64,000 bases of DNA, from the NCBI RefSeq assembly GCF_025905425.1, contig NZ_CP109603.1, forward strand, positions 3,798,501 to 3,862,500. Direction: 5' to 3'. This DNA comes from Pseudomonas putida. Lineage in GTDB: Bacteria; Pseudomonadota; Gammaproteobacteria; Pseudomonadales; Pseudomonadaceae. A program made the position numbers and the translations under genes. Positions 7,997 to 42,692 of this stretch are shown one piece after another. The first letter of the stretch is position 1, and every line of letters starts with the position of its first letter. The notes under the pieces are model-generated. The model saw nothing but the letters and a program-made list of their open reading frames with translations. It did not search any database and was not told where the DNA came from.

Positions 7997-9139
7997 GTGT
8001 CCCTCAAGACCCTCATCGTATTTGGCACCCGCCCAGAGGCCATTAAAATGGCACCTCTGGCCCTCAACCTTGCCCAGGACGACCGTTTCGAGTCGCGCGT
8101 TTGCGTCACTGGCCAGCATCGCCAGATGCTCGACCAGGTACTGGAACTGTTCGAGATCACTCCCGACTACGACCTGAACATCATGAAGCCAGGCCAGGAC
8201 CTGACTGACGTGACCACGGCCATCCTGCAGGGGCTCAAGCCCGTGCTGGCCGAGTTCAAGCCGGACGTGGTGCTAGTTCACGGCGACACCGCAACCACCC
8301 TGGCGACCAGCCTTGCGGCCTACTACCAGCAGATTCCAATCGCCCACGTCGAAGCCGGCCTGCGCACCAACAACCTGTATTCGCCATGGCCTGAAGAAGG
8401 CAACCGTCGCCTGACCGGCACGCTGGCAGCGCTGCACTTCGCGCCGACCTCGACCTCGCGTGACAACCTGCTCAAGGAAGGCACCGACGCCGCGACCATT
8501 TACACCACCGGCAACACCGTGATCGATGCGCTGCTGGAAGTGGTCCGCAAGCTGGAAAGCCCAGCGCTCAAGAGCCACTTCGAAAAACAGTTCGAATTCC
8601 TCGACGCCAGCCGCCGCATGGTGCTGGTGACCGGCCACCGCCGCGAAAACTTTGGCGATGGCTTCGAACGCATCTGCCAGGCGCTGGTGCAGACCGCTCG
8701 CCAGTTCCCGGATGTGGACGTGGTGTACCCGGTCCACCTCAACCCCAACGTGCGCGAGCCGGTCAACCGCCTGCTGGCCGGGGTCGACAATATTCACCTG
8801 ATCGAGCCACTGGACTACCTGCCGTTCGTCTACCTGATGAGCCGCTCGTACCTGATCCTCACCGACTCCGGTGGCATCCAGGAAGAAGCCCCTGCCCTGG
8901 GCAAGCCGGTACTGGTCATGCGTGACACCACCGAGCGCCCGGAAGCGGTCGCGGCGGGCACCGTCAAGCTGGTTGGCACCGACGTCGACTCGATCAAAGA
9001 ACACCTGGTGCAGCTGCTCACCGATGAAGCGACCTATCGCGAGATGAGCGTTGCCCACAACCCCTACGGCGACGGAAAAGCGTGCGCGCGAATCCTTGAC
9101 GCCCTTTCCGTATTCTCTAACTCCAAGGACGCAGCATGA
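7997..9139 (+). CDS. wecB: UDP-N-acetylglucosamine 2-epimerase (non-hydrolysing)
   Basis: Interconverts UDP-GlcNAc and UDP-ManNAc in the cytoplasm, giving the precursor for UDP-ManNAcA. The 380-residue protein shows [13 protein letters not shown] at the N-terminus, HVEAGLRT, the EEGNRR segment, TGHRRENFG and SGGIQEEAP, all typical of the non-hydrolysing WecB/WbpI family. The start is a GTG at 7997 that gives the standard N-terminus. The stop overlaps the wecC start by four bases, so the two are translationally coupled. It is the first gene of the plus-strand glycan module. Confidence 0.94.
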
Positions 9140-10398
9140 GCTTCAACAAGATTTCTGTCGTAGGTCTGGGCTATATCGGCCTGCCAACTGCCGCCGTTTT
9201 CGCCGCCCGCAAGAAGCATGTCATCGGCATCGACGTCAACCAGCACGCGGTCGACACCATCAACCGCGGTGAAATCCACATCGTCGAGCCTGAGCTGGAC
9301 ATGGTTGTTCACGCCGCCGTGACCGAAGGGTTCCTGCGTGCCTCCACCGTGCCGGAAGCCGCCGATGCCTTCCTGATCGCCGTACCGACGCCGTTCATGG
9401 ACGACCACCAGCCGGACCTGAGCTACATCGAGTCCGCGAGCAAAGCCATCGCCCCAGTACTGAAACAGGGCGACCTGGTCATTCTGGAATCGACCTCCCC
9501 GGTCGGCGCCACCGAGCAGATGGCCTTCTGGCTGGCCCAGGCTCGCCCAGACCTGAGCTTCCCGCAGACCCACGGCGAAGAGTCCGACATTCGCATCGCC
9601 CACTGCCCTGAGCGCGTACTGCCAGGCCACGTGCTGCGTGAGCTGGTCGAGAACGACCGCATCATCGGCGGCATGACCAAAAAGTGCTCGGATGCTGCCG
9701 TACGCCTGTACCGCACCTTCGTCGAGGGCGAGTGCATCGTCACCAACGCCCGCACCGCCGAGATGTGCAAGCTGACCGAAAACAGCTTCCGTGACGTGAA
9801 CATCGCGTTCGCCAACGAACTGTCGATCATCTGCGACAAGCTGGACATCGACGTCTGGGAACTGATCCGCCTGGCCAACCACCACCCTCGCGTCAACATC
9901 CTGCAGCCGGGCCCAGGCGTAGGCGGCCACTGCATCGCCGTCGATCCATGGTTCATCGTCAGCCAGACTCCAGAGCAGGCGCGTTTGATCCGCACCGCCC
10001 GTGTGGTCAACGACAGCAAGCCTGAGTGGGTGATCGACAAGGTCAAGATGGCCCTGGCCAACTTCCTGATCAAGAACCCAGGTAAAACGGCCCAGCAAGT
10101 CAAAATCGCTTGCTACGGCCTGGCCTTCAAAGCCGACATCGACGACCTGCGCGAAAGCCCGGCCCTGAGCATTGCCGAGCGCCTGGGCAACGAACTGGAA
10201 GCCACCCTGCACCTGGTCGAGCCGAACATCGAAGCCCTGCCGCAGCGCCTGGCGCACCACGAGCACGTGGACTTCGACTTCGCCCAGGACAGCGCCGACA
10301 TTCACGTACTGCTGGTTAAGCACCGCGAATTCCGCGGCACCTTCACCGTCCGTGATGCTGCCTTCGTGATCGACGCCGCTGGCGTTACCCAGGGTTGA
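9136..10398 (+). CDS. wecC: UDP-N-acetyl-D-mannosamine dehydrogenase
   Basis: Oxidises UDP-ManNAc twice with NAD+ to UDP-ManNAcA. The 420-residue protein carries [14 protein letters not shown] for NAD binding (residues 11-24), [10 protein letters not shown], and the catalytic cysteine in [15 protein letters not shown]. Its length and domain order (NAD domain, central domain, UDP-binding domain) are standard. It overlaps wecB by ATGA and precedes the giant glycosyltransferase by 13 bases, so the three are probably one operon and ManNAcA is probably a substrate for the module. Confidence 0.94.
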
Positions 10399-10411: not shown

Positions 10412-13400
10412 ATGAACAACACCACGCTTGAGAAACCTACCGTGAACAATGAGCTGCCGTCACCTTTGGCCGATATTCATGACCGTGTGATGGAAGCCTA
10501 CTACGGCAAGCTGGGTGATCAGTTCATGCGGGAAACCCAAGCCCGCATCCACTGGATCTGCGCCCAGGTAAAAGGGCGTCGGATCCTGGATGTCGGCTGC
10601 TCGCAGGGTATCGTGCCCCTGCTGCTGGCACGTGAAGGCTGCCAGGTCACCGGTGTGGACACCAGCCCGCAGGCCATTGAAGAGGCCAAGGGTTACCTGT
10701 CGACCGAGCCGGCCCACATCCAGCAAAACGTCACGTATATCAATTCTGACTTCCTCGCGCTGGACACGCTCGAGGTCGAACCCGACACCGTCGTCATCAG
10801 CGAAGTACTCGAACACCTGGTGCGCCCGGAGCTGTTCGTCGAAAAGGCCAACCAACTGCTCAAGCAGGGTGGCCGCCTGGTGATTACCGTGCCGTTCGGG
10901 GTCAATGACTTCATTGACCACAAGCACACGTTCTACCTGATGGAACCCTTCCGGCTGCTGGCCGAGCACTTGCAGATCATCGAGATCAAGATGCTCGGCA
11001 AGTGGCTGGGGATTGTCGCAGTCAAAAGCGAAACGCATAAACCCGGCATCGTCGACTCGCTGACGGTTGAGCGCGTGCGTGAGCTGGAAAAGGCGTTTGA
11101 GTCCATCGAGCGCACCCTGCGCGAGAACATTGGCGCGATCAGCAAACGCCTGGAAGAAGCGAACAAGAAGTATCGCGGCGCTACCGAGCAGATCGCCCAA
11201 CTCAAGCCTGAGGCCCAGCGGGCCGAGGCGCTGTCCAAGCAGTTGCAGACCCGCGATGCGGACATTGCAACCCTGCAGAAGTCCAACCGTGAAATCCTCG
11301 ACGCCAAGACCCAGCGGGCCCAGGAGCTTGAGGAAATCAAACAACGGTTGGAAGACGCCAACAAGAAGTATCGCGTGGCGACCGAGCAGCTTGCCCTGCT
11401 CAAACCCGAAGCGCTGAAAGCCGAAGCCCTCTCTCGCCAGCTCCAGGATCGTGAAGCGGATATCGCCTCGCTTGAACAGTCGAGCCGGGAGTCGCTTGAA
11501 GCCAGCGTTCGCAATATTCAGGCGCTCAGCGAAGAGCTCGACGCCTTCAAGGCGCAACTGACCGAGGCAAACCAGAAGTGCCTAACGGCTGCCGAGCAGT
11601 ACACGCTGCTGGAACAGCAGTTCGCGGCGCTCGAAGAGGCCCAAGTACAGAGCCTTGCAGACGCCGAGCAACGCTTTGACGCGCTGCTGAGCCAACATGA
11701 AGAAGCGCGAAAGCAATTGAGTGAAGCCAGCGACGAACTCGCTGCGCTGGCTCAAAGCAACAGCGACCTGCAAGACAACCTGACTAGCTCCGCCGACCTG
11801 CAACGCGCCCTGGAAGAGCAACTGCAGAGCACCCAGGCTCAATTGCAAGAGGCGCAGCACAATACTGACGCGCAGAACGGGCACATCAACCAGCTCAGCG
11901 CGGAACTCAGCCAGCGGGAATCTGCGCTGGAATCGCTGCAGCAATTGCATCAATCCATCGAGGAGCAATTGCAAGCAACGTCCCAGCAGCGAACTGCCGC
12001 CGAAGAGCGGGCAGCGAACAAGGCTGCAAGGCTCGAAACCCTGAGGGCGGAGCATGATGCGCTCGCCGCACAGCTGCAACAGATGTCTGAACTGCGCACT
12101 GAGGACCGGCGCGAAAACGTGACCTTGGGCGATAGCCTCGCCGCGCTTCGCGAGCAGCACAGTGAACTGGAAAACCAGTTCCGCTCGGTTGCCGAACAAC
12201 TGGCCGAGGTACAGCAGGTCAATGAGGGCCACGTCGCCACCATCACCGGCTTGCGTGCCCACCAGACAGCACTGGAAGCCGAGTTGGAGAATCAGCGGCA
12301 GCAGTCGTCTGATCTACTGGCGCAGGCGCAGCAAACCAATGTTGAGCATATAGACACCATTACCGCCCTGCGTGCTCATCAAGCGGCAGTGCATGCCAAG
12401 CTTGAAGACCAGGCTGAAGCCATGAGCGAATACCAAGCTCAGGCTCAGGACAAAGAAGCGGCCCATCTCGACACCATCGCAGCCTTGCAGTCGGGCCAAG
12501 CCGACCTGCACACCCAGCTGCAACAGGCTGCCGAGCTGCAAGCGCAGGCCGACCAGGCCAACGCTGCCCACCTCGACACCATCACAGCCTTGCAATCGGG
12601 CCATGCCGATCTGCACACCCAGCTGCAACAGGCTGCCGAGCTGCAGGCGCTGGCCGACCAGGCCAATGCTGCACACCTCGACACCATCGCGGCCTTGCAG
12701 TCGGACCACACCGACCTGCACACCCAGCTGCAACAGGCTGCCGAGCAGCAGGCTCTGGCCGACCAGGCCAATGCTGCACACCTCGACACCATCGCGGCCT
12801 TGCAGTCGGGCCACACCGACCTGCACACCCAGCTGCAACAGGCTGCCGAGCTGCAAGCGCAGGCCGACCAGGCTAACGCTGCCCACCTCGACACCATCGC
12901 AGCCTTGCAATTGGGCCATGCCGATCTGCACACCCAGCTGCAACAGGCTGCCGAGCTGCAAGTGCAGGCCGACCAGGCTAACGCTGCCCACCTCGACACC
13001 ATCGCAGCCTTGCAATCGGGCCATGCCGATCTGCACACCCAGCTGCAACAGGCTGCCGAGCTGCAGGCGCTGGCCGACCAGGCCAATGCTGCACACCTCG
13101 ACACCATCGCGGCCTTGCAGTCGGACCACACCGACCTGCACACCCAGCTGCAACAGGCTGCCGAGCAGCAGGCTCTGGCCGACCAGGCCAATGCTGCACA
13201 CCTCGACACCATCGCGGCCTTGCAGTCGGGCCACACCGACCTGCACACCCAGCTGCAACAGGCTGCCGAGCTGCAAGCGCAGGCCGACCAGGCTAACGCT
13301 GCCCACCTCGATACCATCGCAGCCTTGCAATCGGGCCATGCCGATCTGCACACCCAGCTGCACCTGGCTGCCGAGCTGCAGGACCAGGCTGACCGGGCCA

Positions 13401-16400
13401 ATGCTGCGCACTTGGACACCATTGCAGCGTTGCATTCGAGCCATGCCGAACTGGAAAGCCAGTTGTTAGAGGCCGCCGAACTGCAAGAACAAACCCATCT
13501 GGCCAACACAGCTCACGTTGAAGACATCGCCACTCTGCGTGCACACCAGGCAGCCCTGGAAACCGAGCTGGAAAACCAGATTCAGGCAATGACCCGTTTG
13601 CAAACCCAAAGCGATCAGGATATTGCCGAGAAGGACGACACGATCACCACGCTGCGCATGCGCCAAGCGGAACTGGAAGCCGAACTTGAAAGCGAGTTGG
13701 AGTATATGAACGAATTGCTGGCCCAAACCCAACGGGCCGACGCCGCTCAGGCTGAAACCATCGCTCTGTTGAAAGCCCGTCAAGCTGAACTGGAAACAGA
13801 GCTGGCCGATCAGCGCCAGACCATGAACGAACTGCAGGCTCAGAGCCAGCAGGCCAATGCCATTCAAGCGAACACGATTAGTGCCTTGCAAAACCGCCAG
13901 ACTGAGCTGGAAGTTCAGTTGCAGGTAATGAACGATGTTCAGGCACAGAGCCAGCGCGAGCATGCCGCTCAGGTCAACTCCATCAATGCTTTGGTTGAAC
14001 AACGCGCCGTGTTGGAAGACCGGTTGCAAGCACTGAACCAGGCCAACACCCAGTCGGAAGCAGCCCGGGCCTCGCTGACGGAGACCATTGCGTCCCTGAA
14101 CCAGGCCAAGACCATGCTTGAGGAGCAGCTCCAGCTGGAGAGCGTCAGCCGCCAGGCGGCCGAGGCCAGCCTCGCCGCTACCAACGAGGAATGGCAAGGT
14201 CTGCGCCTGCAACTGGAAGCCGAACTCAATTCGTCCAAGGCAGGCCTTGGCGCAGCAAACATGAAGTACCGCGCCCTCACCGGCGAGCAGATTCCGCAGT
14301 TGAAGGCCAGCCTCAATCAGCTGCTGGAGCGTAGCACCGTTCAGCAACGCAAGATCGACGAGCTCAACGAAAACCTGGACCGGGCAAACACCCAGCGCCA
14401 CCTGGCTGAACAGCGTCTGGTCAAGACGCGTTCCAGCATGACCTATCAGCTCGGCTACCAGATCAAGAACAGCGCCAGCTCCCTGGGCGGCCTGGTCAAG
14501 CTGCCGGTGCGCCTGCTGCGGCTTTACCGCAAGGCCAACCAGCAACGCCAGCAAAATGAGCAAAAACTGCTGGCCAACGAACCGCTCAAGGCACTGCTGC
14601 CGCCACCACCTGCCGTGCAGGACGAAAACTACCTCAAGCTGCCAGCGGCCCTGCCTACTAGCGAACAAAGCCGCACCACCCTGCTGCGCCAGGTCGACCA
14701 GCCCGTCAGCCGCCTGAAAGTGGCGTGCGTGATGGACGAGTTCACCTTCGGCTCGTATCGCTATGAATGCGACCTGATGCCGCTCACCCCGGCCAACTGG
14801 AAAGCCGAAATCGAAGGCTTCGGCCCCGAGTTGCTGTTCATCGAGTCTGCCTGGCGCGGCAAGGATGACCTGTGGGGTAGCAAGGTCGGCCACAACGGCC
14901 AGGAGCTGCAGGACATTATTGCCTGGTGCCGCCAGAACAAAGTGCCGACTGTCTTCTGGAACAAGGAAGACCCGGTCCACTTCGAGACCTTCCTGACGAC
15001 GGTCAAGCAGTTCGATCACGTGTTCACCACCGATATCGACTGCATCCACCGCTACAAGGGCGCACTGGGTCATGACCGCGTCTATCTGCTGCCGTTCGCT
15101 TGCCAGCCTGCGCTGCATAACCCGATCGAGCTGTACGAGCGCAAGGACGCCTTCTGCTTCGCCGGCGCCTACTACGCCCGTTACCCGGAGCGTACCCGCG
15201 ACCTGGGCAACTTCGTCACCGAGCTGCCCAAGTTCCGCCCACTGGAAATCTTCGACCGTAACTTCGGCAAGAACGATGTCAACTACCAGTTCCCCGAGGA
15301 ATACCAGCCGTACATCGTCGGCACCCTGCCCTTCGAGAAAATCGACACGGCTTACAAAGGTTACCGCTACGCGATCAACCTGAACTCGATCAAGCAGTCG
15401 CAATCGATGTTTGCCCGCCGCGTCTTCGAGCTGCTCGGCTGCAACACCCTGACCGTGAGCAACTTCTCACGCGGTGTGCGCCTGCTGTTCGGCGACCTGG
15501 TTGTCACCACCGACAATGGCGAAGAGATGCTGCGTCGCCTGCAGTTGCTGGCAGAAGACCCGCTCAACAGCGACAAGCTGCGGCTGGCCGCCCTGCGTAA
15601 AGTGATGCAGGAGCACACCTATACCCAGCGTCTGGAATACGTGATGAGCAAGGTCACCGGCACCTCGAAGGCCCAGCGCCTGCCGGAGATCGTGGTTGTC
15701 TGCGAAGCCCAAAATCGCCAGCAGTTCGACATGCTGCGTGCCCACCTGAACCGCCAGACCTATAGCCAAGTGCGCATGGTCATCATCAGCGATGCCTACC
15801 AGAGCAGCATCGTGACTGACGACCCACGTATCCTGGTGCTCAAGCCTGCCCAACTGAAGAAGACGTCTCTCGGTGAGCTGGTCGGCAATACCCCTTGGGT
15901 TGCCGCCTTCGTACCTGGCGACTACTACGGCCCCAACTACCTGCTCGACCTGGCGCTGGCAACCCGCTACAGCCGCGCCCAAGTGATCGGTAAAGCGGCC
16001 CACTTCACCTGCAAAGGCCAAACTGCCGAACTGCTGTCGAACGAACAGGCCTACCGCCCGACGCCGTCGCTGAGCGCCCGCCGTTCGCTGGTTGCGACCG
16101 AGATCGTCGCCGCCCAACCCCTGCGCAGCTGGCTGAAGAACCTGCCATCGATGCAGTACACCCACGCTCAAGGCCTGGCCATCGATCCGTTCAACTACTG
16201 CGAGAACGGCGCGGCACAACACGAGAGCATCAGCACCAAGGTCAACGACCTCGAACTGAACATGGGCATGACCATCGATCAGTTGCAAGCCCGTGCACAA
16301 TCGATCGCGCCGCTGCAAATCAGCCACGACGCGCCTGAAATCACTGGCCGCGGCTTGGCCGACATGTTTGGCGTCATTCGCAACAAGTTCGTTGACCTGC

Positions 16401-17881
16401 TGGTCGACGGCGACAACTGGCGCGTGCATTCCAAGCTCGCCGACGGCAAGCACGAATACATCTACGCCCAACAGGAAGTCCGCGTCGACGAAATGGGTTG
16501 CGAAGATGGCCGCCTCAAGCTGTTCCTCGACTGCACGCCCGGCTTGAATCTGCAGTTGGTCGTGCTGTTCCTGGATGCTGACAAACAGCGCATCAGCCAC
16601 GTCATGCAGTATGCGAACCGCAACCAGACCGCCGATGTTCCGCCAGAAGCTGTGTTCGTGCGTTTTGGCCTGCGCGCCTACTCTGCGGGCAGCACAGACC
16701 TGAAGGCACTGGTGCTGGGGCATCGTAACCTGCAGCCCTCGGAAATGATGGGCCGCGGCGAGCACCTGCTGCTGACCAACCACTACCCGTCTTACTCCGA
16801 CCTGTATCGCAACAAGTTCGTACACACCCGGGTTACGGCCTACCAGGAACACGGCATCGATGTAGACGTGTTCCGTCTGCGGCCCAACGAAACGGTGAGC
16901 TACCACGAATTCCAGAACATCGATGTCGTCACGGGTTGCACGTCGACCTTGTCGAAAATGCTCGAGAAGAATCGCTACAAATCGATCCTTGTGCACTTCC
17001 TCGACGAGCAGATGTGGAATGTCCTGCGTCCGTTCCTGAACAGCACACGCATCACTGTCTGGGTACACGGCGCGGATATTCAGCCTTGGTGGCGTCGTGA
17101 GTTCAACTTCGTGACTGACGAACAGCTGCACCTGGGCAAGCTCGCCAGCGAAAAACGCATGACGTTCTGGCGCGGCCTGCTGCAACCGATGCACCCGAAC
17201 CTCAAGCTGGTGTTCGTGTCTCGCTACTTCGCCGAAGAAGTGATGGAGGACCTTGGGTTCCGCCTGCCAGAAGGCCAGTACGAGATCATTCACAACCCGA
17301 TCAACACCGAGTTGTTCGATCATCGGGAGAAATCGGCCGAGCAGCGCAAGAAAGTGCTCTCGATTCGCCCTTATGCCTCGAAGACCTACGCCAACGACCT
17401 GACCGTCAAGGCAATCCAGAGCCTGGCGACCAAGCCCTGGTTCAATGACATGGAGTTCTGCCTGATCGGTGACGGCCCTCTGTTTGAAGAAACCCTGGCT
17501 CCGCTGCGCAGCTACGCCAACGTGAAAATCCAACAGGGCTTCCTCAACCACACGGAAATCGCTCAAACCCATAAAGACTACGGGATTTTCCTGTGCCCGA
17601 GCCGCATGGACACCCAAGGCGTATCCCGCGATGAGGCCATGTCGTCAGGTCTGGTTCCTGTGACGACCGCTGTAGCGGCAGTCCCTGAGTTCGTCGACAA
17701 CCAGTCTGGATACGTGGTCGAGCCAGAAAGCCACGAGCAACTGGCGAAAGCGATCGAGGACATGTACCACAATGGCAACACCTTCGTTGCGAAGTCCAAC
17801 GCCGCAGCCAAGCGCGTTCGTGGGCAAAGCGCCAGCGACAAAATGGCGGAACGGGAAGTTGCTGTGATTCAGAATCACTGA
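10412..17881 (+). CDS. Giant methyltransferase / long coiled coil / multi-glycosyltransferase protein (2489 aa)
   Basis: One intact frame encodes several enzymes. Residues 40-205 form a class I SAM methyltransferase (ILDVGCSQG 58-66; EVLEHLVRP 131-139). Residues ~220-1335 are Glu/Gln/Ala/Leu-rich coiled coil, including ten 35-residue repeats (685-1034). A proline-rich linker near 1394 follows. Residues ~1434-1760 resemble CgeB-like GT-B transferases (PTVFWNKEDPVHFETF). Residues ~1760-1943 resemble a GT2 domain whose acidic motif is degenerate (VPGDYYGPNYLLD). Residues ~1974-2110 look like a beta-rich module. Residues ~2113-2489 are a GT4 domain (VSRDEAMSSGLVPVTTAVAAVPEFVD). No signal peptide or membrane helix is seen, so it is cytoplasmic. 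It probably elongates and/or caps a ManNAcA-containing glycan; methyltransferase-plus-coil recalls WbdD chain-length rulers. Exact activities are unknown. Confidence 0.85.
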   Translation: MNNTTLEKPTVNNELPSPLADIHDRVMEAYYGKLGDQFMRETQARIHWICAQVKGRRILDVGCSQGIVPLLLAREGCQVTGVDTSPQAIEEAKGYLSTEPAHIQQNVTYINSDFLALDTLEVEPDTVVISEVLEHLVRPELFVEKANQLLKQGGRLVITVPFGVNDFIDHKHTFYLMEPFRLLAEHLQIIEIKMLGKWLGIVAVKSETHKPGIVDSLTVERVRELEKAFESIERTLRENIGAISKRLEEANKKYRGATEQIAQLKPEAQRAEALSKQLQTRDADIATLQKSNREILDAKTQRAQELEEIKQRLEDANKKYRVATEQLALLKPEALKAEALSRQLQDREADIASLEQSSRESLEASVRNIQALSEELDAFKAQLTEANQKCLTAAEQYTLLEQQFAALEEAQVQSLADAEQRFDALLSQHEEARKQLSEASDELAALAQSNSDLQDNLTSSADLQRALEEQLQSTQAQLQEAQHNTDAQNGHINQLSAELSQRESALESLQQLHQSIEEQLQATSQQRTAAEERAANKAARLETLRAEHDALAAQLQQMSELRTEDRRENVTLGDSLAALREQHSELENQFRSVAEQLAEVQQVNEGHVATITGLRAHQTALEAELENQRQQSSDLLAQAQQTNVEHIDTITALRAHQAAVHAKLEDQAEAMSEYQAQAQDKEAAHLDTIAALQSGQADLHTQLQQAAELQAQADQANAAHLDTITALQSGHADLHTQLQQAAELQALADQANAAHLDTIAALQSDHTDLHTQLQQAAEQQALADQANAAHLDTIAALQSGHTDLHTQLQQAAELQAQADQANAAHLDTIAALQLGHADLHTQLQQAAELQVQADQANAAHLDTIAALQSGHADLHTQLQQAAELQALADQANAAHLDTIAALQSDHTDLHTQLQQAAEQQALADQANAAHLDTIAALQSGHTDLHTQLQQAAELQAQADQANAAHLDTIAALQSGHADLHTQLHLAAELQDQADRANAAHLDTIAALHSSHAELESQLLEAAELQEQTHLANTAHVEDIATLRAHQAALETELENQIQAMTRLQTQSDQDIAEKDDTITTLRMRQAELEAELESELEYMNELLAQTQRADAAQAETIALLKARQAELETELADQRQTMNELQAQSQQANAIQANTISALQNRQTELEVQLQVMNDVQAQSQREHAAQVNSINALVEQRAVLEDRLQALNQANTQSEAARASLTETIASLNQAKTMLEEQLQLESVSRQAAEASLAATNEEWQGLRLQLEAELNSSKAGLGAANMKYRALTGEQIPQLKASLNQLLERSTVQQRKIDELNENLDRANTQRHLAEQRLVKTRSSMTYQLGYQIKNSASSLGGLVKLPVRLLRLYRKANQQRQQNEQKLLANEPLKALLPPPPAVQDENYLKLPAALPTSEQSRTTLLRQVDQPVSRLKVACVMDEFTFGSYRYECDLMPLTPANWKAEIEGFGPELLFIESAWRGKDDLWGSKVGHNGQELQDIIAWCRQNKVPTVFWNKEDPVHFETFLTTVKQFDHVFTTDIDCIHRYKGALGHDRVYLLPFACQPALHNPIELYERKDAFCFAGAYYARYPERTRDLGNFVTELPKFRPLEIFDRNFGKNDVNYQFPEEYQPYIVGTLPFEKIDTAYKGYRYAINLNSIKQSQSMFARRVFELLGCNTLTVSNFSRGVRLLFGDLVVTTDNGEEMLRRLQLLAEDPLNSDKLRLAALRKVMQEHTYTQRLEYVMSKVTGTSKAQRLPEIVVVCEAQNRQQFDMLRAHLNRQTYSQVRMVIISDAYQSSIVTDDPRILVLKPAQLKKTSLGELVGNTPWVAAFVPGDYYGPNYLLDLALATRYSRAQVIGKAAHFTCKGQTAELLSNEQAYRPTPSLSARRSLVATEIVAAQPLRSWLKNLPSMQYTHAQGLAIDPFNYCENGAAQHESISTKVNDLELNMGMTIDQLQARAQSIAPLQISHDAPEITGRGLADMFGVIRNKFVDLLVDGDNWRVHSKLADGKHEYIYAQQEVRVDEMGCEDGRLKLFLDCTPGLNLQLVVLFLDADKQRISHVMQYANRNQTADVPPEAVFVRFGLRAYSAGSTDLKALVLGHRNLQPSEMMGRGEHLLLTNHYPSYSDLYRNKFVHTRVTAYQEHGIDVDVFRLRPNETVSYHEFQNIDVVTGCTSTLSKMLEKNRYKSILVHFLDEQMWNVLRPFLNSTRITVWVHGADIQPWWRREFNFVTDEQLHLGKLASEKRMTFWRGLLQPMHPNLKLVFVSRYFAEEVMEDLGFRLPEGQYEIIHNPINTELFDHREKSAEQRKKVLSIRPYASKTYANDLTVKAIQSLATKPWFNDMEFCLIGDGPLFEETLAPLRSYANVKIQQGFLNHTEIAQTHKDYGIFLCPSRMDTQGVSRDEAMSSGLVPVTTAVAAVPEFVDNQSGYVVEPESHEQLAKAIEDMYHNGNTFVAKSNAAAKRVRGQSASDKMAEREVAVIQNH
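12464..13513 (+). repeat. Ten tandem 105-bp in-frame repeats, with a duplicated 420-bp block
   Basis: The motif encoding HLDTIAALQ recurs at 12464, 12569, 12674, 12779, 12884, 12989, 13094, 13199, 13304 and 13409, exactly 105 bases apart. Each unit codes for 35 residues, that is five heptads of coiled coil. Copies 2-5 and 6-9 form a higher-order 420-bp pair: bases 12585-12891 recur without a mismatch at 13005-13311. Copies 1 and 10 are the most divergent, and degenerate 39-residue units flank the array. This pattern indicates recent unequal recombination or slippage. Confidence 0.97.
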
Positions 17882-17886
17882 AGACG

Positions 17887-19689
17887 ATGATGAAACCCGC
17901 TTTGAAGCATTTCGTTTTTACCAACTTTGGTATCGGCATCAAGGATGAACTGTGGCTGACCTACAGACTGGAGATCTTTAGCAATACTGCTCTCCCGTCT
18001 TTGGTCAACCAGAGCAATCAGGGTTTCGAATGGATCATCTTCGTTGATAAGGCACTGCCGACCCTGCACCGAACGCGCCTGGAGACGCTGCTAAGTGGTT
18101 CTGGCCTGAATGCGCGAACGCTTCAGGTCAGCGACTACTCCATGGTCAGTCGCGAAATCCTGCGCCTCATCAAGGACGTTGACGAGGCGGTACTGGTAAC
18201 GTCGCGCATCGATGATGATGACTGCATTCATGAGCAGGTCATCGAGCTGATTCAAACCGAGGCCACCTCTGAGCACAACATCTCGGAGGTGCTGCTGATA
18301 TCGCTTAAAAACGGTATCGAATTTCTGCCTTCGGATGAGTGCCATCGCCCGGTCGAATACGACACGCTGGCAATTGCGCTGACGCTGGTCGACAAGACCG
18401 CAGGGCCCAAGTCACACGCCATTACCCAGTACGCCCACCACCTCGTCGTCTCAACGCTGGAACAGCATCGGATTTCAGCCGAGCACATCCATCTGACGAG
18501 AGCGGAACCGCTTTACCTGTATACCAAGCACCCGCTCAGCGACTCGTACTTCTTTGGCGCCCGCGCGCGGATACTCAGCGCCCCTGAATGCGTGAACGGG
18601 TTCGATCCCGAGCTGTTTGCACGGTTCGGCCTGCAGACTACCCAGCTTGAATACCTGACTCAGCTGCTGCGAGAGTCTCCGCTGGGCATGCCCCACAAGT
18701 ACCTTGAGAAGCTGAGCACCGTTCGCCAGCAAATCAAGGCAGAGCAACAGAACGTATTTGGTGCCGACGAAACGGTATTGAACAACCTGTTGTCGCAAAA
18801 AGCCCGGCTTGAGGTCAAGGCATCGCGCCCGAACCCGGTGAAAGCCAACGCGGGGAAGATTCGCGTTGCCATTCTCGGCTCAAGCGCTTCGCACAATTTG
18901 TTCACGTTTCAAAGAGAAACCCTGGAACGCTTCGAGGTGTGTTTTTACATGTCTCAATCGTCGGTTATCGCTTACATGGCGCCGCCCTGCCTCGATGCTC
19001 GGTTCAAGGTCGAGACCGAAGACGCCGAGGCCAAGCGTATTCAATGGGATGCCTCTAAAGCACACTGGCAACAGCTTGAGCAATCGCGCCCCGACATCGT
19101 GATTGTCGATTTCCTTGACGAAAGCATCGGCATTGCAACATGTGGGACCTCCATCGTTTCGGCCAGCCCGCTCATGCTCAAAACCCTGGCGCGCTGTGGT
19201 ATCGAGTACAAGCTGCAGGCCCCATGGAGTGAAGAGGCGAAACAATTGCGCGCCTGGGCGCTGCCCATGTTCCTTGAGCGCCTGGCCAGCCTGTGCCCGA
19301 ACATTTTTGTGCACCAGGCTAACTGGGCGAACCAGTACAAAAGCAAGGAAACCGTTGCAAGCTTCGCCGGGAGCACCTTCGAGAGCTTGATCGACCTCAA
19401 CAACGCAATCATCGACCCGATGCTGGAAGGCTTGGAGAACTCGACGATCCCCGTTGAGAGAATCGGCGGCAAGGACGCTGGCTTGATCGGGGGAGCGGCG
19501 CCTCGCTGGGCCTACTGCCCGTATCACTATGACAGCACGTACTACAGAACCATCGCCAAACAAGCCTTTGCCAAGATGGTGCAGTACGTCTCGAAAAACG
19601 AGCACAAATGGGCGTTTTGCCCCTACTACTACCACGGCACCTATTACAGAACCCTCGCCAAACAATTGTTGGCGCGGATCATCAATTGA
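17887..19689 (+). CDS. Glycosyltransferase (putative rhamnosyltransferase family) fused to a DUF6270-like domain
   Basis: A 600-residue protein. Residues 1-280 resemble the putative rhamnosyltransferase family (Pfam Rhamno_transf): KHFVFTNFGIGI, SLVNQSNQGFEWIIFVD and an acidic DDDD cluster (in SRIDDDDCIHEQV) suited to metal and nucleotide-sugar binding. Residues ~315-560 resemble DUF6270, also encoded alone at 26768; the nucleophile-like motif reads GSSASHN here against GSCVSRD there, so it may be inactive. The C-terminus holds two copies of a 34-residue unit, RWAYCPYHY (540-548) and KWAFCPYYY (574-582). It starts six bases after the giant gene ends, so it is co-transcribed with it. Confidence 0.75.
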   Translation: MMKPALKHFVFTNFGIGIKDELWLTYRLEIFSNTALPSLVNQSNQGFEWIIFVDKALPTLHRTRLETLLSGSGLNARTLQVSDYSMVSREILRLIKDVDEAVLVTSRIDDDDCIHEQVIELIQTEATSEHNISEVLLISLKNGIEFLPSDECHRPVEYDTLAIALTLVDKTAGPKSHAITQYAHHLVVSTLEQHRISAEHIHLTRAEPLYLYTKHPLSDSYFFGARARILSAPECVNGFDPELFARFGLQTTQLEYLTQLLRESPLGMPHKYLEKLSTVRQQIKAEQQNVFGADETVLNNLLSQKARLEVKASRPNPVKANAGKIRVAILGSSASHNLFTFQRETLERFEVCFYMSQSSVIAYMAPPCLDARFKVETEDAEAKRIQWDASKAHWQQLEQSRPDIVIVDFLDESIGIATCGTSIVSASPLMLKTLARCGIEYKLQAPWSEEAKQLRAWALPMFLERLASLCPNIFVHQANWANQYKSKETVASFAGSTFESLIDLNNAIIDPMLEGLENSTIPVERIGGKDAGLIGGAAPRWAYCPYHYDSTYYRTIAKQAFAKMVQYVSKNEHKWAFCPYYYHGTYYRTLAKQLLARIIN

Positions 19690-20157: not shown

Positions 20158-21894
20158 ATGAAACTCCAGCAACAGATAAAAGCCACTATCGGCTGGTGCA
20201 TTTCCCTGGGCGTGAAATTCGTCAAGGTCGTGCCGATCATTACCGGGCTGGTGCAAATCAGTACCTTGGCGAGCCAGATATTTCTATTGCTGGCCTTCTT
20301 TCTGCCCCTTAAAGTCATCATTCTGCTAGGGTCCGAAAAAACGCCTGCCTATTTTCCTTCGATCCTGCATGCGCTGGAGAAGGATCATCTGATCTATGCG
20401 TTGACGGCCGCGGCGGCCCTTTCGTATATCGCCTATCTTCTGGCCGAACTGGCGACCGCACTGCTGTGCCGCAAAGGCACGCAGAGACTCCTCGCTCGCA
20501 CCTCCAAGCTCAATTTGTTCGAGAATCAGGAAAAAATTGCTACCAATGCCTACTCTCGCTTTAACCGAGCGATGGCAGGTGGCGTCTTTTTTGGCCTGAG
20601 CACGGTGGCACTGGCCTTTGTATACCCGAGCCTGCTGCTGGCGATTTTCGCGTATCTGGCCATAGCATCGACCATCTGCGTCCTGGCATACAACCACATA
20701 AAGAGCATTCGAGAGCGCTTCCATCAGCACTACAGCCCTATTCTGAATGCCTTGGCGGCAACAGGCTTTCTGCTAAGTTTCTTCTTTCTGGTGACTGACT
20801 TCCTGTACTTCCAGCACACCAAGATTTTCAACGCTGTCATTGCCGTTCTGATCATGCGCCAGGGCTTGCAGAGGCTGTCGGGCATGATGCTGGACGTGAT
20901 TGGCCTGCGTATTCAGCATCGGCAGGTCAATGCGCTGTTCTATCAGTCTCAGCCCCTCATCGAGCTGCGCCCGCAAAGCAATGGGTTGGACTACATTCTT
21001 GAGGCAGAAAACCGAGACAAGTGGGTCCGGGCACTGCTGCAAAAACTCAAGGCCGAGGCGGTCGAAAGCTATCAGATGCATTGGCACCAGGTGGGCTTTA
21101 CCGATATCTATGCCTTTACCCTGCAGTTTAGCGATGGGCCGGTTGAACACAGCCTGCTGGTCAAGGTGTTTGGCAATAACATTTCGTCTTCCGCCCTGCA
21201 GGAAAGAACACTGCTGACCACACAACGCGGATTGCCGGTATTACCCTTTGTAGGCCACTACAAGGTCAGCGATATCGACTGCCATGTGTATCGCTTTGAA
21301 GCGGCTGACAAGCTGGCCGGTCGGCAGATTGGGGAAGGCATACTGGGCGTGGCACAGAAGCTGATGCTGCTGGAGCCCGCTGCCGCGCTCATTGCACAAT
21401 TCACCCGCACGCGCCTGTACCTCGAACAGCGCCTGGATGAAGCCATGATCAGCTCACTTCGCCTGGCCTGTATCAATGATGACGACACCCAACGTGTCGA
21501 ACGCATCATCAGTAACCTGCCCTCCATTACCCGGCAACTGGCCGAGCTGCCTCGCCAGATCGTGCCGCTGGATATCACCAACAACACACTACTGGCGTCC
21601 CCCACCTCCGGCTTTGTCCTCAGCCACTGGAGTAACTGGCGTATTGAAGCGATTGGCTGCAGTTGGCCAATCACTCAAAAAGACGCGCTTTTTGAAACGC
21701 TCAGTTCTGGCGACCAGCGCCCGGCACTTGCTGGCGCCGAGCAGCAAAAGGTCTGGCTGGCCGCACTGATGTACATGCTGGAACGACATATTGTGCGAAA
21801 AGACTATTCGGCAGCCCTTGCATTGACACCTGAAATCGTCAGCTGCATCGAGATTTTTGATACACCCACAGCGGTAGAGGGCGCGACGCAATGA
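20158..21894 (+). CDS. Polytopic membrane protein with C-terminal degenerate kinase-like domain
   Basis: A 578-residue protein not assigned to a known family. The N-terminal ~270 residues hold about five or six hydrophobic helices with a layout reminiscent of an ABC-exporter membrane domain, but no ATPase domain follows. The cytoplasmic C-terminal ~300 residues have traces of an aminoglycoside-phosphotransferase fold: PLDITNNTLL where HGDxxxxN is expected and LSHWSNWRIEAIG where the second Asp should be. The key aspartates are partly lost, so catalysis is doubtful. The ATG at 20158 follows an in-frame TTG at 20134. Its stop overlaps the next gene by four bases, tying it to the glycosyltransferases. 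Confidence 0.65.
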   Translation: MKLQQQIKATIGWCISLGVKFVKVVPIITGLVQISTLASQIFLLLAFFLPLKVIILLGSEKTPAYFPSILHALEKDHLIYALTAAAALSYIAYLLAELATALLCRKGTQRLLARTSKLNLFENQEKIATNAYSRFNRAMAGGVFFGLSTVALAFVYPSLLLAIFAYLAIASTICVLAYNHIKSIRERFHQHYSPILNALAATGFLLSFFFLVTDFLYFQHTKIFNAVIAVLIMRQGLQRLSGMMLDVIGLRIQHRQVNALFYQSQPLIELRPQSNGLDYILEAENRDKWVRALLQKLKAEAVESYQMHWHQVGFTDIYAFTLQFSDGPVEHSLLVKVFGNNISSSALQERTLLTTQRGLPVLPFVGHYKVSDIDCHVYRFEAADKLAGRQIGEGILGVAQKLMLLEPAAALIAQFTRTRLYLEQRLDEAMISSLRLACINDDDTQRVERIISNLPSITRQLAELPRQIVPLDITNNTLLASPTSGFVLSHWSNWRIEAIGCSWPITQKDALFETLSSGDQRPALAGAEQQKVWLAALMYMLERHIVRKDYSAALALTPEIVSCIEIFDTPTAVEGATQ

Positions 21895-23126
21895 CGAAAG
21901 TCTCGATGATTGTATGGAATGAATTCCTCAACGACGCGCGTGTGATGAAGGAAGCTCAAACGCTTCAACGGGCGGGTTATCAAGTTCGAGTGTTCGCACT
22001 GCACACCCCTGGCGTCACCCAACAGCAGGTGGTTCTGGACGATGGCATAGAAGTGGTTCGCGTCGCCCGCTCGCCCTTGTGGAAACTGCGTAAGAAGAAC
22101 CTGCAACCGGCCATGAAAGCCAGCGGCGAATCGCATCAGTCCGCGCCTGTAAAACCCAGCTTGAAACTGCTCGTTCTAAGAGCCATTTCACGCGGGTGGA
22201 CGCACCTCGCGCTGCTGTTCAAGATGCTGGAGTACCGGGCAACAGTGGTGCACTCGCATGATGTCAACACCCTCCCCACTGCCTGGCTTGCGGCAAAACT
22301 GTCGCGCGCTAAGCTGGTGTACGACGCACACGAAATCAGCACAAGCCGAGAAGGCTACAATAGCCTGAGAAAGGTCGTAGGGTTTGTAGAAAAACGGCTG
22401 ATGCCTTCGGCAAATGGCACGATCACCACAACCGACGCACGCGCCAAGTATTTCGCTCGCGCCTACGGCGTGGAGCGGCCATTGGTTTTACAAAACCGCC
22501 CCAGGCTGATCGAAAGCCCACCCTCAAACCGTATTCGAGATGAACTCGGCCTTGCTGAACCGTGGCCGATCGTGCTCTATCAGGGTGGTTTACAGCAAGG
22601 CCGCGGCCTGGAAAAGCTGGTCCGCACCGCGCAGCATGTGCCTGATTGTTACTTCGTGCTGATCGGCGGAGGCCGGCTGACCCAACCGCTGATGCAATTG
22701 GCGCAAGAACTGAACCTGCAGCACAAAGTGCACTTCATTCCAACGGTGGCGCTGGCCGAGCTGCCGAGCTATACGGCATCTGCTGACGTGGGCGTACAGC
22801 CCATTGAAAACACCTGCCTCAATCATTACACCACCGACTCGAACAAACTCTTCGAATATGTGATTGCCGGCCTACCGGTGATCGCAACTGACTTCCCTGA
22901 AATCCGCAGGATTGTCAGGAACAATGACATCGGCCTGCTGGTGCCGGCAAATAATGAGCAGGCCCTCGGCACCACGATCATTCAACTGCTGGAAGACCGC
23001 GCGCTGCGCGCACACTTCGCCAGCAACGCCAGGAAGACGGCTCAAAACTTGAATTGGGAAAGCCAGGAAAAGTGTTTAGTTGATCTCTACGAGCGGGTGT
23101 TACTCACCCCCGCTCACACCAGGTGA
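21891..23126 (+). CDS. GT4 family glycosyltransferase
   Basis: A 411-residue GT-B enzyme. The acceptor half begins with NEFLNDARVMKEAQTLQRAGY, and a second domain contains LYQGGLQQGRGLEKL and the acidic region FEYVIAGLPVIATDFPEIRRIV that binds the nucleotide sugar in GT4 enzymes. It is cytoplasmic or peripheral to the inner membrane. The start overlaps the previous stop by ATGA, and its stop overlaps the next start, so three genes are translationally coupled. Donor and acceptor are unknown. Confidence 0.85.
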   Translation: MTKVSMIVWNEFLNDARVMKEAQTLQRAGYQVRVFALHTPGVTQQQVVLDDGIEVVRVARSPLWKLRKKNLQPAMKASGESHQSAPVKPSLKLLVLRAISRGWTHLALLFKMLEYRATVVHSHDVNTLPTAWLAAKLSRAKLVYDAHEISTSREGYNSLRKVVGFVEKRLMPSANGTITTTDARAKYFARAYGVERPLVLQNRPRLIESPPSNRIRDELGLAEPWPIVLYQGGLQQGRGLEKLVRTAQHVPDCYFVLIGGGRLTQPLMQLAQELNLQHKVHFIPTVALAELPSYTASADVGVQPIENTCLNHYTTDSNKLFEYVIAGLPVIATDFPEIRRIVRNNDIGLLVPANNEQALGTTIIQLLEDRALRAHFASNARKTAQNLNWESQEKCLVDLYERVLLTPAHTR

Positions 23127-24352
23127 CCCCGGCCGTGAAAACACGCATTCTCTTTTTGAGCTTTTACTACCCGCCGGATCTGTCGGCGGGCTCCTTCCGT
23201 GCTGAGGCATTGGTAAAAGCACTCTTGGAGAATGTCGGCGACCATGTGGAAATCGATGTAATCACCACACAGCCCAATCGATACCATACGTTCAAGACCA
23301 GTGCCTCCAGCTTTGAACAATCACCTAGCCTGACGGTGCGACGACTCGCAGTGCCTGCGCACAAAAGTGGCTTCATAGACCAGGCGTTTTCGTTCGGCTC
23401 GTTTGCCTACCAAGTGTGCAAAGTTGCCAAAAGCAAACACTACGACCTGATCTTTGCCACGTCCTCGCGCCTGATGACAGCCTCGTTGGGCGCTTACATC
23501 TCTCGAAGAACAGGCACCAAGCTGTACCTGGATATTCGCGATATTTTTGTCGATACCCTGCAAGGGGTACTACCGCCCGCCCTCGGTAAAATAGCGTCTA
23601 TGGTGTTTTCATCCATTGAAGCTACCACCATCCGACAGGCTGACAAAGTTAATCTTATTTCACCTGGATTTACGCCGTACTTTAACAAGCGCTACCCCGA
23701 CAAGGTATTCACCTTGCATACCAACGGGATCGATGAGCTTTTCCTGACCCCACCTCCCGCTCCGGCCGTCACGCCAAACCTGCCGGCACTGCCGCGCCGA
23801 CTGAAGATTGTATACGCCGGCAATATTGGCACCGGGCAAGGCCTTCACCTGATTGTTCCGCAACTGGCCAAGCACCTGGAGGGTGAAGCGGACTTTCATC
23901 TGATCGGGTCTGGCGGCGCCATTGAACGGCTTAAAAAAGCACTTGCCCGCGAGCAGGTGACAAACGTCTACCTTGCGCCCCCGATGAAGCGTGACTCTTT
24001 GCTGAAGCTTTATCGTGAGGCTGATGTACTGTTCTTGCATTTGAATGACATGAAGGCGTTCCGTCGGGTGTTGCCGTCCAAGCTGTTCGAATATGCAGCC
24101 ACACAGAAGCCGATTCTGGCTGGCTTGTCTGGGTACCCCGGTCGCTTTGCCAGCAGACGCATTCACAATACGGCTGTGTTCAACCCCTGTGACCTCGAAG
24201 CCGCCATCAAATCATTCAGGAGCCTGGAACTCGGCCCCACAGCTCGAAATGATTTCATACAAAAATATTCGCGAACAGCTATCAAAAGGAGGATGGCCTT
24301 CGACTTGCTGACAACATCACCCAAGCACTCGAAGTTCGAGCAGACTGAATAG
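23123..24352 (+). CDS. GT4 family glycosyltransferase (WbuB-like)
   Basis: A 409-residue GT-B glycosyltransferase. The N-terminal FYYPPDLSAGSFR is characteristic of WbuB-like transferases. The C-terminal donor domain has IVYAGNIGTGQGLHLIV and FEYAATQKPILAGLSG. It starts with GTG at 23123, overlapping the preceding stop; a second possible start lies a few codons downstream. It is the last glycosyltransferase of the plus-strand operon. A fresh promoter follows it, which suggests that the next lipoprotein has its own transcript. Confidence 0.83.
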   Translation: MTPAVKTRILFLSFYYPPDLSAGSFRAEALVKALLENVGDHVEIDVITTQPNRYHTFKTSASSFEQSPSLTVRRLAVPAHKSGFIDQAFSFGSFAYQVCKVAKSKHYDLIFATSSRLMTASLGAYISRRTGTKLYLDIRDIFVDTLQGVLPPALGKIASMVFSSIEATTIRQADKVNLISPGFTPYFNKRYPDKVFTLHTNGIDELFLTPPPAPAVTPNLPALPRRLKIVYAGNIGTGQGLHLIVPQLAKHLEGEADFHLIGSGGAIERLKKALAREQVTNVYLAPPMKRDSLLKLYREADVLFLHLNDMKAFRRVLPSKLFEYAATQKPILAGLSGYPGRFASRRIHNTAVFNPCDLEAAIKSFRSLELGPTARNDFIQKYSRTAIKRRMAFDLLTTSPKHSKFEQTE

Positions 24353-25176: not shown

Positions 25177-26151
25177 ATGAAAATACATTATGAAACACTA
25201 ACACAGGACTGGTTCGACAAAGCCTTAAGCACAGGGCCCCACAAATCAGGCTGGATTCCGAAACACCACCTTGACCTTTTTAGGCCGTGGCCCGAAAAGT
25301 ACGTCAACCACTATCATCAACCATTTAACCCCTTTGCATTTGCGATTAATGCGTGCGCACTGGCAACTTCATGCAAAACGCATGGCGCCCTTAAAACCAT
25401 ACTCGACCAAATTGACTATCTCGACCTAGCGGCAAGCAGTTACACTGAAACCATTGGTAACCATACCTACATCAGAAACGACTTTGATTTCCCCATGTAC
25501 TGGGCCACCATGAAAAAGCCTTTTTATGGCGCCTTTATGAATGCCTACACTGCGTACGGCTACATCAAGCTGCACGAAGCCACCGGTGACGACAAGTACT
25601 TCAATAAGGCGCTCAAATTAATAACGACCCTAACCTCGAAAGACGCACAAATACAACTCTCCAATCGTGATTCCGACGGAGATTTTTGGCTCTACGAATA
25701 TGTGTTCACCCCACAAGAAACTGAATTAAATTATCTCAAAGACATCGGCACTGAGATCCAAGAAGACGGCAGAATGCGTTTTCGCGTTTTCAACGGCCAC
25801 ATTGCCGCGATTTTCGCATTAATGAAATTCAGAAAGCACACCAGCATGAGCTTTGTTGATGAAGCGATTGAGCAGTCCATTCTGACCATGTCCAAAAACT
25901 TAAATTTACAACTTTTTAAGCAAAAATATTTTTCTTACTCAATTGAGGCCGCTGTGTTACCGGATTACGGACAGAAGAGAGCTGTCCATCTGGCCAAACA
26001 CCTTGCCGAAGCAACAGACGACAAAACTCTGAAGCTCACTCATGAGGCGTTTGATACTTTTTACAACGAGTCCCTGAAGGCGTGTGAACAAGAAATCTAT
26101 CAGGCGGGGAGAAAATCAGCACTGGACCTCTACACCCCACTGAAAGCATGA
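25177..26151 (+). CDS. Putative uronyl C5-epimerase-like (alpha/alpha-toroid) protein
   Basis: A 324-residue soluble protein without a signal peptide. Pieces resemble the C-terminal toroid domain of D-glucuronyl C5-epimerases: YGAFMNAYTAYGYIKLHEATG followed by DDKYFNKAL, then WLYEYVF and a NGHIAAIFALMKF segment matching the family's EY...NGF.. pattern. Such enzymes invert C5 of uronic acids in polymers such as heparosan. Here the substrate could be a ManNAcA-containing glycan made by the upstream genes (inference). Codon use is AT-rich, unlike wecB or rml genes, pointing to recent transfer. An uncharacterised toroid glycoside-related protein is the alternative. Confidence 0.5.
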   Translation: MKIHYETLTQDWFDKALSTGPHKSGWIPKHHLDLFRPWPEKYVNHYHQPFNPFAFAINACALATSCKTHGALKTILDQIDYLDLAASSYTETIGNHTYIRNDFDFPMYWATMKKPFYGAFMNAYTAYGYIKLHEATGDDKYFNKALKLITTLTSKDAQIQLSNRDSDGDFWLYEYVFTPQETELNYLKDIGTEIQEDGRMRFRVFNGHIAAIFALMKFRKHTSMSFVDEAIEQSILTMSKNLNLQLFKQKYFSYSIEAAVLPDYGQKRAVHLAKHLAEATDDKTLKLTHEAFDTFYNESLKACEQEIYQAGRKSALDLYTPLKA

Positions 26152-32980: not shown

Positions 32981-33008
32981 CTCTAACGCCTTCTTCCTAT
33001 CACTTTAG

Positions 33009-37198: not shown

Positions 37199-37902
37199 GC
37201 CACCCCTTCTTCAGCGACACGCGCCTTGATGAACTTGGCCGGCACACCGCCATAAATCGAGTTCTTGCGGTATACCCCCGCCGCCACCACCGCCCCTGCG
37301 GCGAACACGCAACCGTCCTCGATCACCGCACCATCGAGCACGGTCACCTTGGCGCCGATCCAGCAGTTGCGACCCACTTTGATGCCCTGGCGAGTCACGC
37401 CCTGCAGGCGGATGGGCTGGTGCGGGTCCTCAAAGTTGTGGTTTTCCGAATGGAAGCTGACGAAGTTGCCGATTATGGTGTCGCTGCCAATTTCGATGCC
37501 GCCGGCGCACCCCAGGAAGCAGCCAGCGCCAAGGCCGACGTTGTCACCGATCACCAGGCCTTTGCCGATGTTGGCCAGGCTGCCAGTGCACTCGATGATG
37601 ATCTGCTTGTTCAGCGACACAGCAGTGCCGAAGCGGATGCCGTCATTGGACAAGGCATCGACGAAACAGCCCTGGTCGATCACCAGCCCAGGGCCGTACT
37701 CGATCTTGCCGACTTCCTTCAGGGTCACCCCCGAGCCAATGAACGCCAGCTGGCGCCGGCGCAGACGGATCACGCCGCGGCAAGCCATCACCAGCTTGGT
37801 CACGAACAGCCCCAGCAAGTAGCCCGACGAGATGCGTCGGTCGACCGTCAAGTGGCGTTTCTTGACCAACAGCACCAGCCTTTCGAGCAAGGCATGCATC
37901 AT
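37195..37902 (-). CDS. Left-handed beta-helix acetyltransferase (WbbJ/WcaF-like)
   Basis: A 235-residue hexapeptide-repeat acyltransferase that would use acetyl-CoA to O-acetylate a sugar of the O-unit. Hexapeptide turns are visible (IGDNVGLGAGCFLG, IEDGCVFAAGAVVAAG), and VSFHSENHNFED contains the catalytic-type histidines typical of WbbJ-like enzymes. The C-terminal NSIYGGVPAKFIK closes the helix. It overlaps both neighbouring glycosyltransferase genes by four bases. Confidence 0.88.
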   Translation of the reverse strand: MMHALLERLVLLVKKRHLTVDRRISSGYLLGLFVTKLVMACRGVIRLRRRQLAFIGSGVTLKEVGKIEYGPGLVIDQGCFVDALSNDGIRFGTAVSLNKQIIIECTGSLANIGKGLVIGDNVGLGAGCFLGCAGGIEIGSDTIIGNFVSFHSENHNFEDPHQPIRLQGVTRQGIKVGRNCWIGAKVTVLDGAVIEDGCVFAAGAVVAAGVYRKNSIYGGVPAKFIKARVAEEGVA

Positions 37903-42683: not shown

Positions 42684-42692
42684 ACCTGGCAC

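Follow-up and report, generated by a model that had tools for sequence, protein, structure and literature searches.

Coiled-coil terminators of polysaccharide chains, a strategy that has been termed widespread in ATP-binding cassette (ABC) exporter pathways (PMC11231755), are the closest described counterparts of the protein presented here. In Escherichia coli O9a and O8, WbdD carries an N-terminal methyltransferase and a coil, controls chain length, and recruits a separate polymerase, with a C-terminal region that covers residues 460-708 of its 708 residues (PMC3482155, PMC5082667). WbdD of the O9a type has a kinase after the methyltransferase, and the O8 homologue, which is described as lacking the kinase and as methylating sugar hydroxyls (PMC3482155), can serve by analogy as a precedent for a terminator with a methyltransferase only. 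O12 WbbB and O7 ORF6 of Klebsiella pneumoniae are single chains with a terminator, a coiled coil, and polymerising glycosyltransferases (GTs), and an arrangement of all these parts in one chain was therefore already known (PMC11231755). According to the available descriptions, the evidence that coil length sets glycan length comes from engineered WbdD and from WbbB (PMC5082667, PMC11231755). Here, we describe a methyltransferase-coil-GT protein of Pseudomonas putida, encoded at positions 10412-17881 (+ strand) of a 64,000-nucleotide stretch (bases 3798501-3862500 of a genome assembled as one contig of 6.14 Mb; hereafter the window). What is new here is a rod built from repeats that varies naturally in length by whole units, together with a missing exporter.

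The gene is one intact frame of 2489 residues that starts with a class I S-adenosylmethionine (SAM) methyltransferase, both as stated in the original prediction, which was made from the DNA letters. The methyltransferase occupies residues 1-215 (10412-11056), where residues 52-198 match Methyltransf_23 (E 4.2e-16, Pfam profile search) and the domain has 35 matches (E ≤ 0.001) among solved sequences, almost all of them named methyltransferases. WbdD is matched only as one of many class I enzymes (E 3e-5), behind 36 other listed chains. No kinase family was found at E ≤ 0.001 in the 2489-residue protein, and since the coil begins at about residue 216, no kinase stands between methyltransferase and coil. 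The opposite end holds a GT core with a CgeB-type GT-B domain (approximate limits residues 1434-1750; 14711-15661) and a GT4 domain (about residues 2116-2489; 16757-17881), in which PF13524 (CgeB-like) matches at residues 1634-1745 and PF00534 (GT4) at residues 2307-2460. In a GT-core alignment of 29 members, to which all family counts out of 29 refer, PF13524 and PF00534/PF13692 were present in 29/29, DUF3880 in 27/29, and PF13439 in 26/29. The transferase end had been predicted to comprise four modules, of which the CgeB-like and the C-terminal GT4 domains were recovered in this way, whereas the GT2-like domain was not (0/29 members matched a GT2 family at E ≤ 1) and the beta-rich module had no family match. 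Both of the latter had been placed in the middle region (about residues 1751-2115; 15662-16756), which matched no family. Between the coil and the GTs lies an amphipathic cationic segment (residues 1340-1378; 14429-14545) that possibly binds the membrane; its 18-residue window at residue 1358 has a hydrophobic moment of 0.59 and a charge of +5, and windows inside the methyltransferase reach a similar moment (0.60) but a lower charge.

The O7 protein ORF6 likewise consists of an N-terminal methyltransferase, a central coiled coil, and C-terminal GTs, but by its description it also has a kinase, a carbohydrate-binding module (CBM), GT2 GTs, and a wzm/wzt locus (PMC11231755), whereas the window protein has GT-B domains and no kinase, and no Wzm/Wzt was found in its genome. 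WbbB of K. pneumoniae O12 and of Raoultella is likewise a single protein that contains two polymerising GTs, a coil, and a terminator, yet the last of these is described as a transferase of beta-linked 3-deoxy-D-manno-oct-2-ulosonic acid (beta-Kdo) that operates with an ABC exporter, and the enzyme at the tip of the window protein is a methyltransferase (PMC11231755). The proposal that capping enzyme, ruler, and polymerising GTs share one chain is partly supported, but the combination, as far as that publication describes it, is not new (PMC11231755).

Residues 216-1340, which separate the two ends, form a helix-favouring stretch with 19% Ala, 15% Gln, 14% Leu, 10% Glu, and 0.3% Pro. In the proximal coil (residues 216-606; 11057-12229), the heptad pattern is strong: all 11 windows starting at residues 206-556 scored z 2.7-6.3 in a heptad contrast test that we scripted ourselves and that compares windows of 70 residues with 300 shuffles. 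A spectrum across the whole of 216-1340 gave no strong 3.5-residue peak over shuffles. From residue 607 to about residue 1225 (12230-14086), motif spacing delineates 17 tandem units whose starts are 35 or 39 residues apart, in the order 39, 39, ten times 35, 39, 39, 39, and 35. Thirty-five residues are five heptads, and 39 are four heptads plus a hendecad, i.e., a stutter of four. Ten consecutive 35-residue (105-nt) units at residues 685-1034 (12464-13513) are near-identical, and DNA repeat analysis detected a tandem array at 12461-13487 with a period of 105 nt and 9.8 copies. Units 6-8 are copies of units 2-4 with 99-100% DNA identity, and a recent 420-nt block duplication is visible in the array. 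The tandem array is the main feature of the protein and was absent from the original prediction. A rise of 0.15 nm per residue would give the rod a length of about 170 nm at most, a figure that is arithmetic only and presumes a continuous helix. Set against the roughly 20 nm described between the membrane and the catalytic domains of WbdD (PMC5082667), such a length would be extreme and calls for caution, because the array gives a weak heptad signal and a bent or folded rod is possible.

Of 7998 candidates scored in a search with the GT core, 1078 proteins passed E ≤ 0.001, and the top 120 of these were analysed together with the query (121 in total). The same domain order recurs elsewhere in this set: 96 of the 121 carry the methyltransferase type of the query and 21 an FkbM type, with neither type in the remaining four (P0025, P0028, P0029, and P0060). 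For the 94 of these 96 members that have a near-complete core, the GT core measured 1099.2 ± 4.1 residues versus 615.1 ± 214.1 residues for the coil (range 125-1175), and coils still ranged from 462 residues to 1175, the value of the query, among the 16 members (query included) whose GT identity is about 92% or more. Compared with the query, the two best-scoring relatives lack 280 (P0002) and 210 residues (P0003), which equals 8 and 6 whole units of 35, and they do not differ in length outside the repeats. There are relatives whose methyltransferases are 99% and whose GT cores are 97% identical, yet whose coils differ by whole units. The nearest named genome locus, that of P. capeferrum WCS358 (GT core 97% identical, about 90-92% DNA identity over the shared region), has four consecutive 35-mers versus ten in the window strain, a comparison to be read with the proneness of tandem repeats to mis-assembly in mind, the window genome being one contig and that of WCS358 a whole-genome shotgun draft. 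WCS358, a plant-beneficial laboratory strain, has a protein of 2279 residues with a coil of 965, and that of Pseudomonas sp. B21-047, at 2209 residues with a coil of 895, is eight units shorter than the window protein. These differences between relatives show a rod that is lengthened or shortened in units of 35 and 39 residues. A coil of 839 residues is common to many listed P. monteilii/P. putida members, which counts against rapid change and may reflect common descent in this large group. Among the literature matches listed, none concerned this Pseudomonas protein or a change of repeat number in such rulers, an absence that stays unproven as subscription papers were mostly out of reach.

With moderate confidence, we interpret the protein as a membrane-associated cytoplasmic polymerase, ruler, and terminator for a surface glycan that contains N-acetylmannosaminuronic acid (ManNAcA) and leaves the cell by a route other than any Wzm/Wzt or Kps system that can be recognised. 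Chain extension at the membrane, contacted through the segment between coil and GTs, would fall to the two C-terminal GT-B domains, while the methyltransferase would be held at the far end of the helical rod and, by analogy with WbdD and WbbB, would methylate and so stop those chains long enough to reach it, such that rod length would be read out as glycan length. A ruler is suggested as the best explanation found because the methyltransferase and the GTs flank a coil of widely differing length while both ends remain fixed, and because the cationic amphipathic segment is positioned between coil and GTs. The phase of the gap sizes given below, the very low proline content, the stand-alone GT cores in ABC-exporter clusters, and the published single-chain precedents (PMC11231755) favour it as well. 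With a methyltransferase at the coil end distal to the GTs and two GT domains in the chain, the protein probably works like a member of the WbdD/WbbB/ORF6 class, but we do not assign it to that system because the ABC exporter that belongs to it was searched for and not found. That the system is also a genetically tunable ruler, which would change sugar length stepwise by 105-nt units (35 residues, about 5 nm if helical) without an ABC exporter and with exchangeable methyltransferases, is a tentative and rather doubtful extension. The products of wecB and wecC make UDP-ManNAcA, and an acidic ManNAcA polymer is the likely product of the locus, proposed because wecB-wecC lies upstream of the main gene. 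If the ruler is real, stepwise chain lengths are predicted, and relatives with near-identical ends and unit-wise differences in the coil may offer a naturally graded set of lengths in which to study how sugar-chain length is controlled in bacteria. If it further operates without Wzm/Wzt, termination could proceed uncoupled from the known exporter, and the P. putida group would have an exporter, so far unrecognised, for a glycan completed in the cytoplasm.

The sizes of gaps in the coil bear on whether its helix is kept in phase. We compared 74 non-redundant members of this methyltransferase subfamily in 130 pairs with at least 80% coil identity, excluding near-duplicates (same length and >97% coil identity), pairs with <80% coil identity (<85% in a stricter run), pairs whose GT identity to the query differed by >12 points, and, for single-gap counts, multi-gap pairs. 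Single-gap sizes equalled 0 or 4 modulo 7 in 15/17 distinct sizes (2/7 expected, binomial 5e-7, for a rule picked after inspection of the data) and in 10/11 of the sizes not built from 35 and 39. The stricter run (85% cut, three gap penalties) gave 11/13 and 6/7, respectively, and with all distinct gap sizes kept, 27/52 obeyed the rule (P 3.3e-4). A single register class for the whole coil, which had been expected, was not found, and the gap-size rule was put in its place. In this subfamily, the rule suggests selection for an unbroken helix and is not read as a general law.

Several observations weigh against the gap-size rule or the ruler reading. The pair {0,4} is the best of 21 class pairs, and gap sizes are not independent, since the compared proteins have common ancestors and 35 and 39 add up to many of the sizes. 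Total coil lengths occupy all seven classes modulo 7, and in the FkbM subfamily (40 representatives of 72 proteins, compared in 377 pairs) gap sizes were 1, 26, 46, 47, 72, and 73, of which only 46 obeys. The heptad signal is weak (z 0.5-2.6) in the 20 windows starting at residues 591-1256, the repeat half of the rod, so that the roughly 1100 heptad-rich residues of the original prediction are strongly borne out for the windows before it and weakly for these. The likeness to WbdD that it drew is apt for the order of methyltransferase and coil, but the cap-recognising ABC exporter implied by that comparison was not found in the window genome. There, profile searches with PF01061, PF14524, and PF05159 did not reveal a Wzm/Wzt or Kps exporter: no Wzt_C (PF14524) and no KpsC/KpsS (Capsule_synth, PF05159) was detected, and none of the four places with ABC2_membrane (PF01061) is an evident polysaccharide ABC2 permease or KpsM-like. 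One of these places is a YadH-type permease (PRK15066), one stands beside genes for a pyrroloquinoline quinone (PQQ) dehydrogenase, and the remaining two, judged by frame size, we take to be an RbbA-like gene and its neighbour. One methyltransferase-coil-GT locus outside Pseudomonas (L028) has no wecB/wecC in the 3.6 kb upstream, and the O-antigen of WCS358 was reported as glucose plus quinovosamine, not ManNAcA, in a study whose authors, in the part available, doubt its completeness (PMC4509608). Lastly, the main gene has beside it a Wzx-like gene (41412-42692, - strand) and a Wzz family match (about 46079-46366, within the - strand open reading frame (ORF) 45356-46486).

Together with a Wzy candidate (38707-39972; 10 hydrophobic stretches, by hydropathy only), these two genes belong with a different explanation, in which the GTs add to a lipid-linked repeat unit for the adjacent Wzx/Wzy/Wzz O-antigen pathway, the methyltransferase decorates one of its sugars, the coil is a scaffold, and Wzz sets the length in the periplasm. 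The proximity of all three genes and the lack of an ABC exporter in the window genome fit such a role, which we nevertheless regard as unlikely. Among 298 Pseudomonas genomes, the GT core was near full-length in 16 (the window genome included) and partial in three, a further 16 had only a weak GT match, and 263 had none. A Wzx-family match (PF01943) lay 18-27 kb from the GT core in 4/16 (G000, G103, G217, and G072), but no such match was near it in the other 12, three of which have none and the rest one far off or on another contig, a count that must allow for diverged Wzx proteins that PF01943 may miss and for fragmented drafts. The GT core is also found in capsule clusters that have an ABC exporter, and a repeat-unit role would leave the variable-length rod with its fixed ends unexplained.

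The same rod speaks against the still less probable idea that the protein is a polymerase with a fused decorating methyltransferase, in which the coil merely tethers the enzymes and nothing reads its length: 1100 residues and phase-keeping indels would be superfluous in a tether, even if stand-alone GT cores without coil or methyltransferase, the swap for FkbM in the sister subfamily, and the separate methyltransferase genes beside the core in Bordetella and Caballeronia would all agree with it. We attach the lowest probability, a very small one, to the array as a neutral product of DNA slippage in a rod that tolerates extra units and measures nothing. The recent block duplication, the weak heptad pattern of the array, and the different units of different lineages (35, 39, 46-48, and others) fit slippage, but the 0/4 rule also holds for most gap sizes that cannot be composed of 35 and 39, in the stricter run as well, and the 839-residue coil has been kept by many listed members of one large group, maybe through shared descent.

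With regard to export, Wzt_C was found in only 4/16 of the Pseudomonas genomes with the GT core (G145, G286, G282, and G067) and not in the other 12, window genome included. Both Wzm and Wzt occurred near the GT core only in G145, about 16-18 kb off. A wider set of 30 genome entries had Wzt_C in eight, two of which (G286 and G305) are apparently the same genome. In G163, where the fused protein is present, a weak ABC2_membrane (PF01061) match of 35.6 bits lies on the same contig but far away (G163:C1:2621840-2622418). In P. protegens, a long OBC3 O-polysaccharide is described as persisting without the OSA wzx, and a second O-polysaccharide route therefore exists in the genus, although nothing ties OBC3 to the window protein (PMC10715155). 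The first candidate for export, or for a lipid step, is a conserved polytopic membrane protein (20158-21894, + strand) with 7 hydrophobic stretches and a soluble C-terminal part, which together with two GT4 genes lies behind the GT core in those Pseudomonas loci where it was found. It matched no Pfam family at cut-off and nothing in the PDB. Its identity as a disguised ABC transmembrane domain was rejected by hhalign against eight ABC_membrane domains of its own genome (probability 0.3 of 100, E 0.23), and nothing supports a kinase-like C-terminal part that had been suspected by eye.

The main gene is the third of a likely operon on the + strand that begins with wecB, a UDP-N-acetylglucosamine (UDP-GlcNAc) 2-epimerase gene (7997-9139; Epimerase_2, 416 bits). 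The latter gene overlaps by 4 nt with wecC (9136-10398), which encodes a UDP-ManNAc dehydrogenase-type enzyme with UDPG_MGDP_dh domains, would supply UDP-ManNAcA here, and ends 13 nt before the main gene. Only 5 nt downstream of the main gene follows a gene for a Rhamno_transf + DUF6270 protein (17887-19689), then, after the polytopic protein, GT4 protein a (21891-23126) and GT4-like protein b (23123-24352), both in conserved order. Among 20 loci, wecB-wecC lies upstream of the GT core in all 11 from Pseudomonas, as it does in 4/4 further stretches. Of the nine non-Pseudomonas loci, which include L028, four have both genes complete (L023, L030, L032, and L033). Both are partly matched in L026, wecB stands without wecC in L027, L024 has part of wecB near a contig edge, and L034 offers hardly any upstream sequence. 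On two Leisingera plasmids, wecC-wecB is nearby on the opposite strand. Heparinase II/III genes occur near the GT core in Bordetella, Leisingera sp. NJS201, and Caballeronia (in the last about 9 kb away), and a weak D-glucuronyl C5-epimerase match in the window (25177-26151, + strand; 25.9 bits at a cut-off of 23.3) might epimerise the uronic sugar of the polymer. DUF6270 is found in two proteins of the window, the one at 17887-19689, where it is fused behind a putative rhamnosyltransferase domain, and another at 26768-27847 (+ strand). Further downstream, the second O-antigen cluster, of Wzx/Wzz type, extends over 30953-46486 (- strand) with Polysacc_synt_2 and Glycos_transf_4 genes, presumably wbpM- and wbpL-like; no Pfam match was obtained for the + strand ORFs at 44252-46216.

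The GT cores of Bordetella pseudohinzii, Leeia oryzae, and Caballeronia insecticola (55%, 53%, and 39% identity, respectively) are encoded directly after wecB-wecC and lack the methyltransferase-23 and long-coil part. The clusters of all three contain ABC-2 permease genes, those of Leeia and Caballeronia an ATPase gene, and those of Bordetella and Caballeronia polysaccharide-export genes and, beside the core, separate methyltransferase genes. In ABC-exporter clusters, chains are polymerised in the cytoplasm. The window locus resembles these KpsM/KpsT-type clusters in its homologous GT core after wecB-wecC and differs from them in lacking the ABC exporter genes and in having the methyltransferase and the long coil fused to the core. 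Four of the 16 Pseudomonas genomes (G143, G191, G032, and G067) have an open frame of only 1192-1235 residues, too short for the fusion, and the fusion present in a Methyloprofundus metagenome-assembled genome (MAG) has a short coil. In the sister subfamily, an FkbM methyltransferase takes the N-terminus (residues 70-219 in P0098 and 72-221 in P0110), and the tip enzyme therefore appears exchangeable while the GT core stays. In this FkbM-type subfamily (e.g., P0110 and P0113, with several members named Stutzerimonas), the coil mostly differs by one 46/47-residue unit and measures 504 residues in 39 and 457 residues in 15 of the 72 proteins. On plasmids, 19 records match the GT core, three of them over at least 80% of it, and the methyltransferase-coil-GT form was absent from three records that were examined; phage families gave a single weak GT match. 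In capsule clusters of beta-proteobacteria that include the GT core (L033, L032, and L067), proteins of 611-827 residues that start with a similar Leu/Glu-rich stretch are encoded upstream of wecB.

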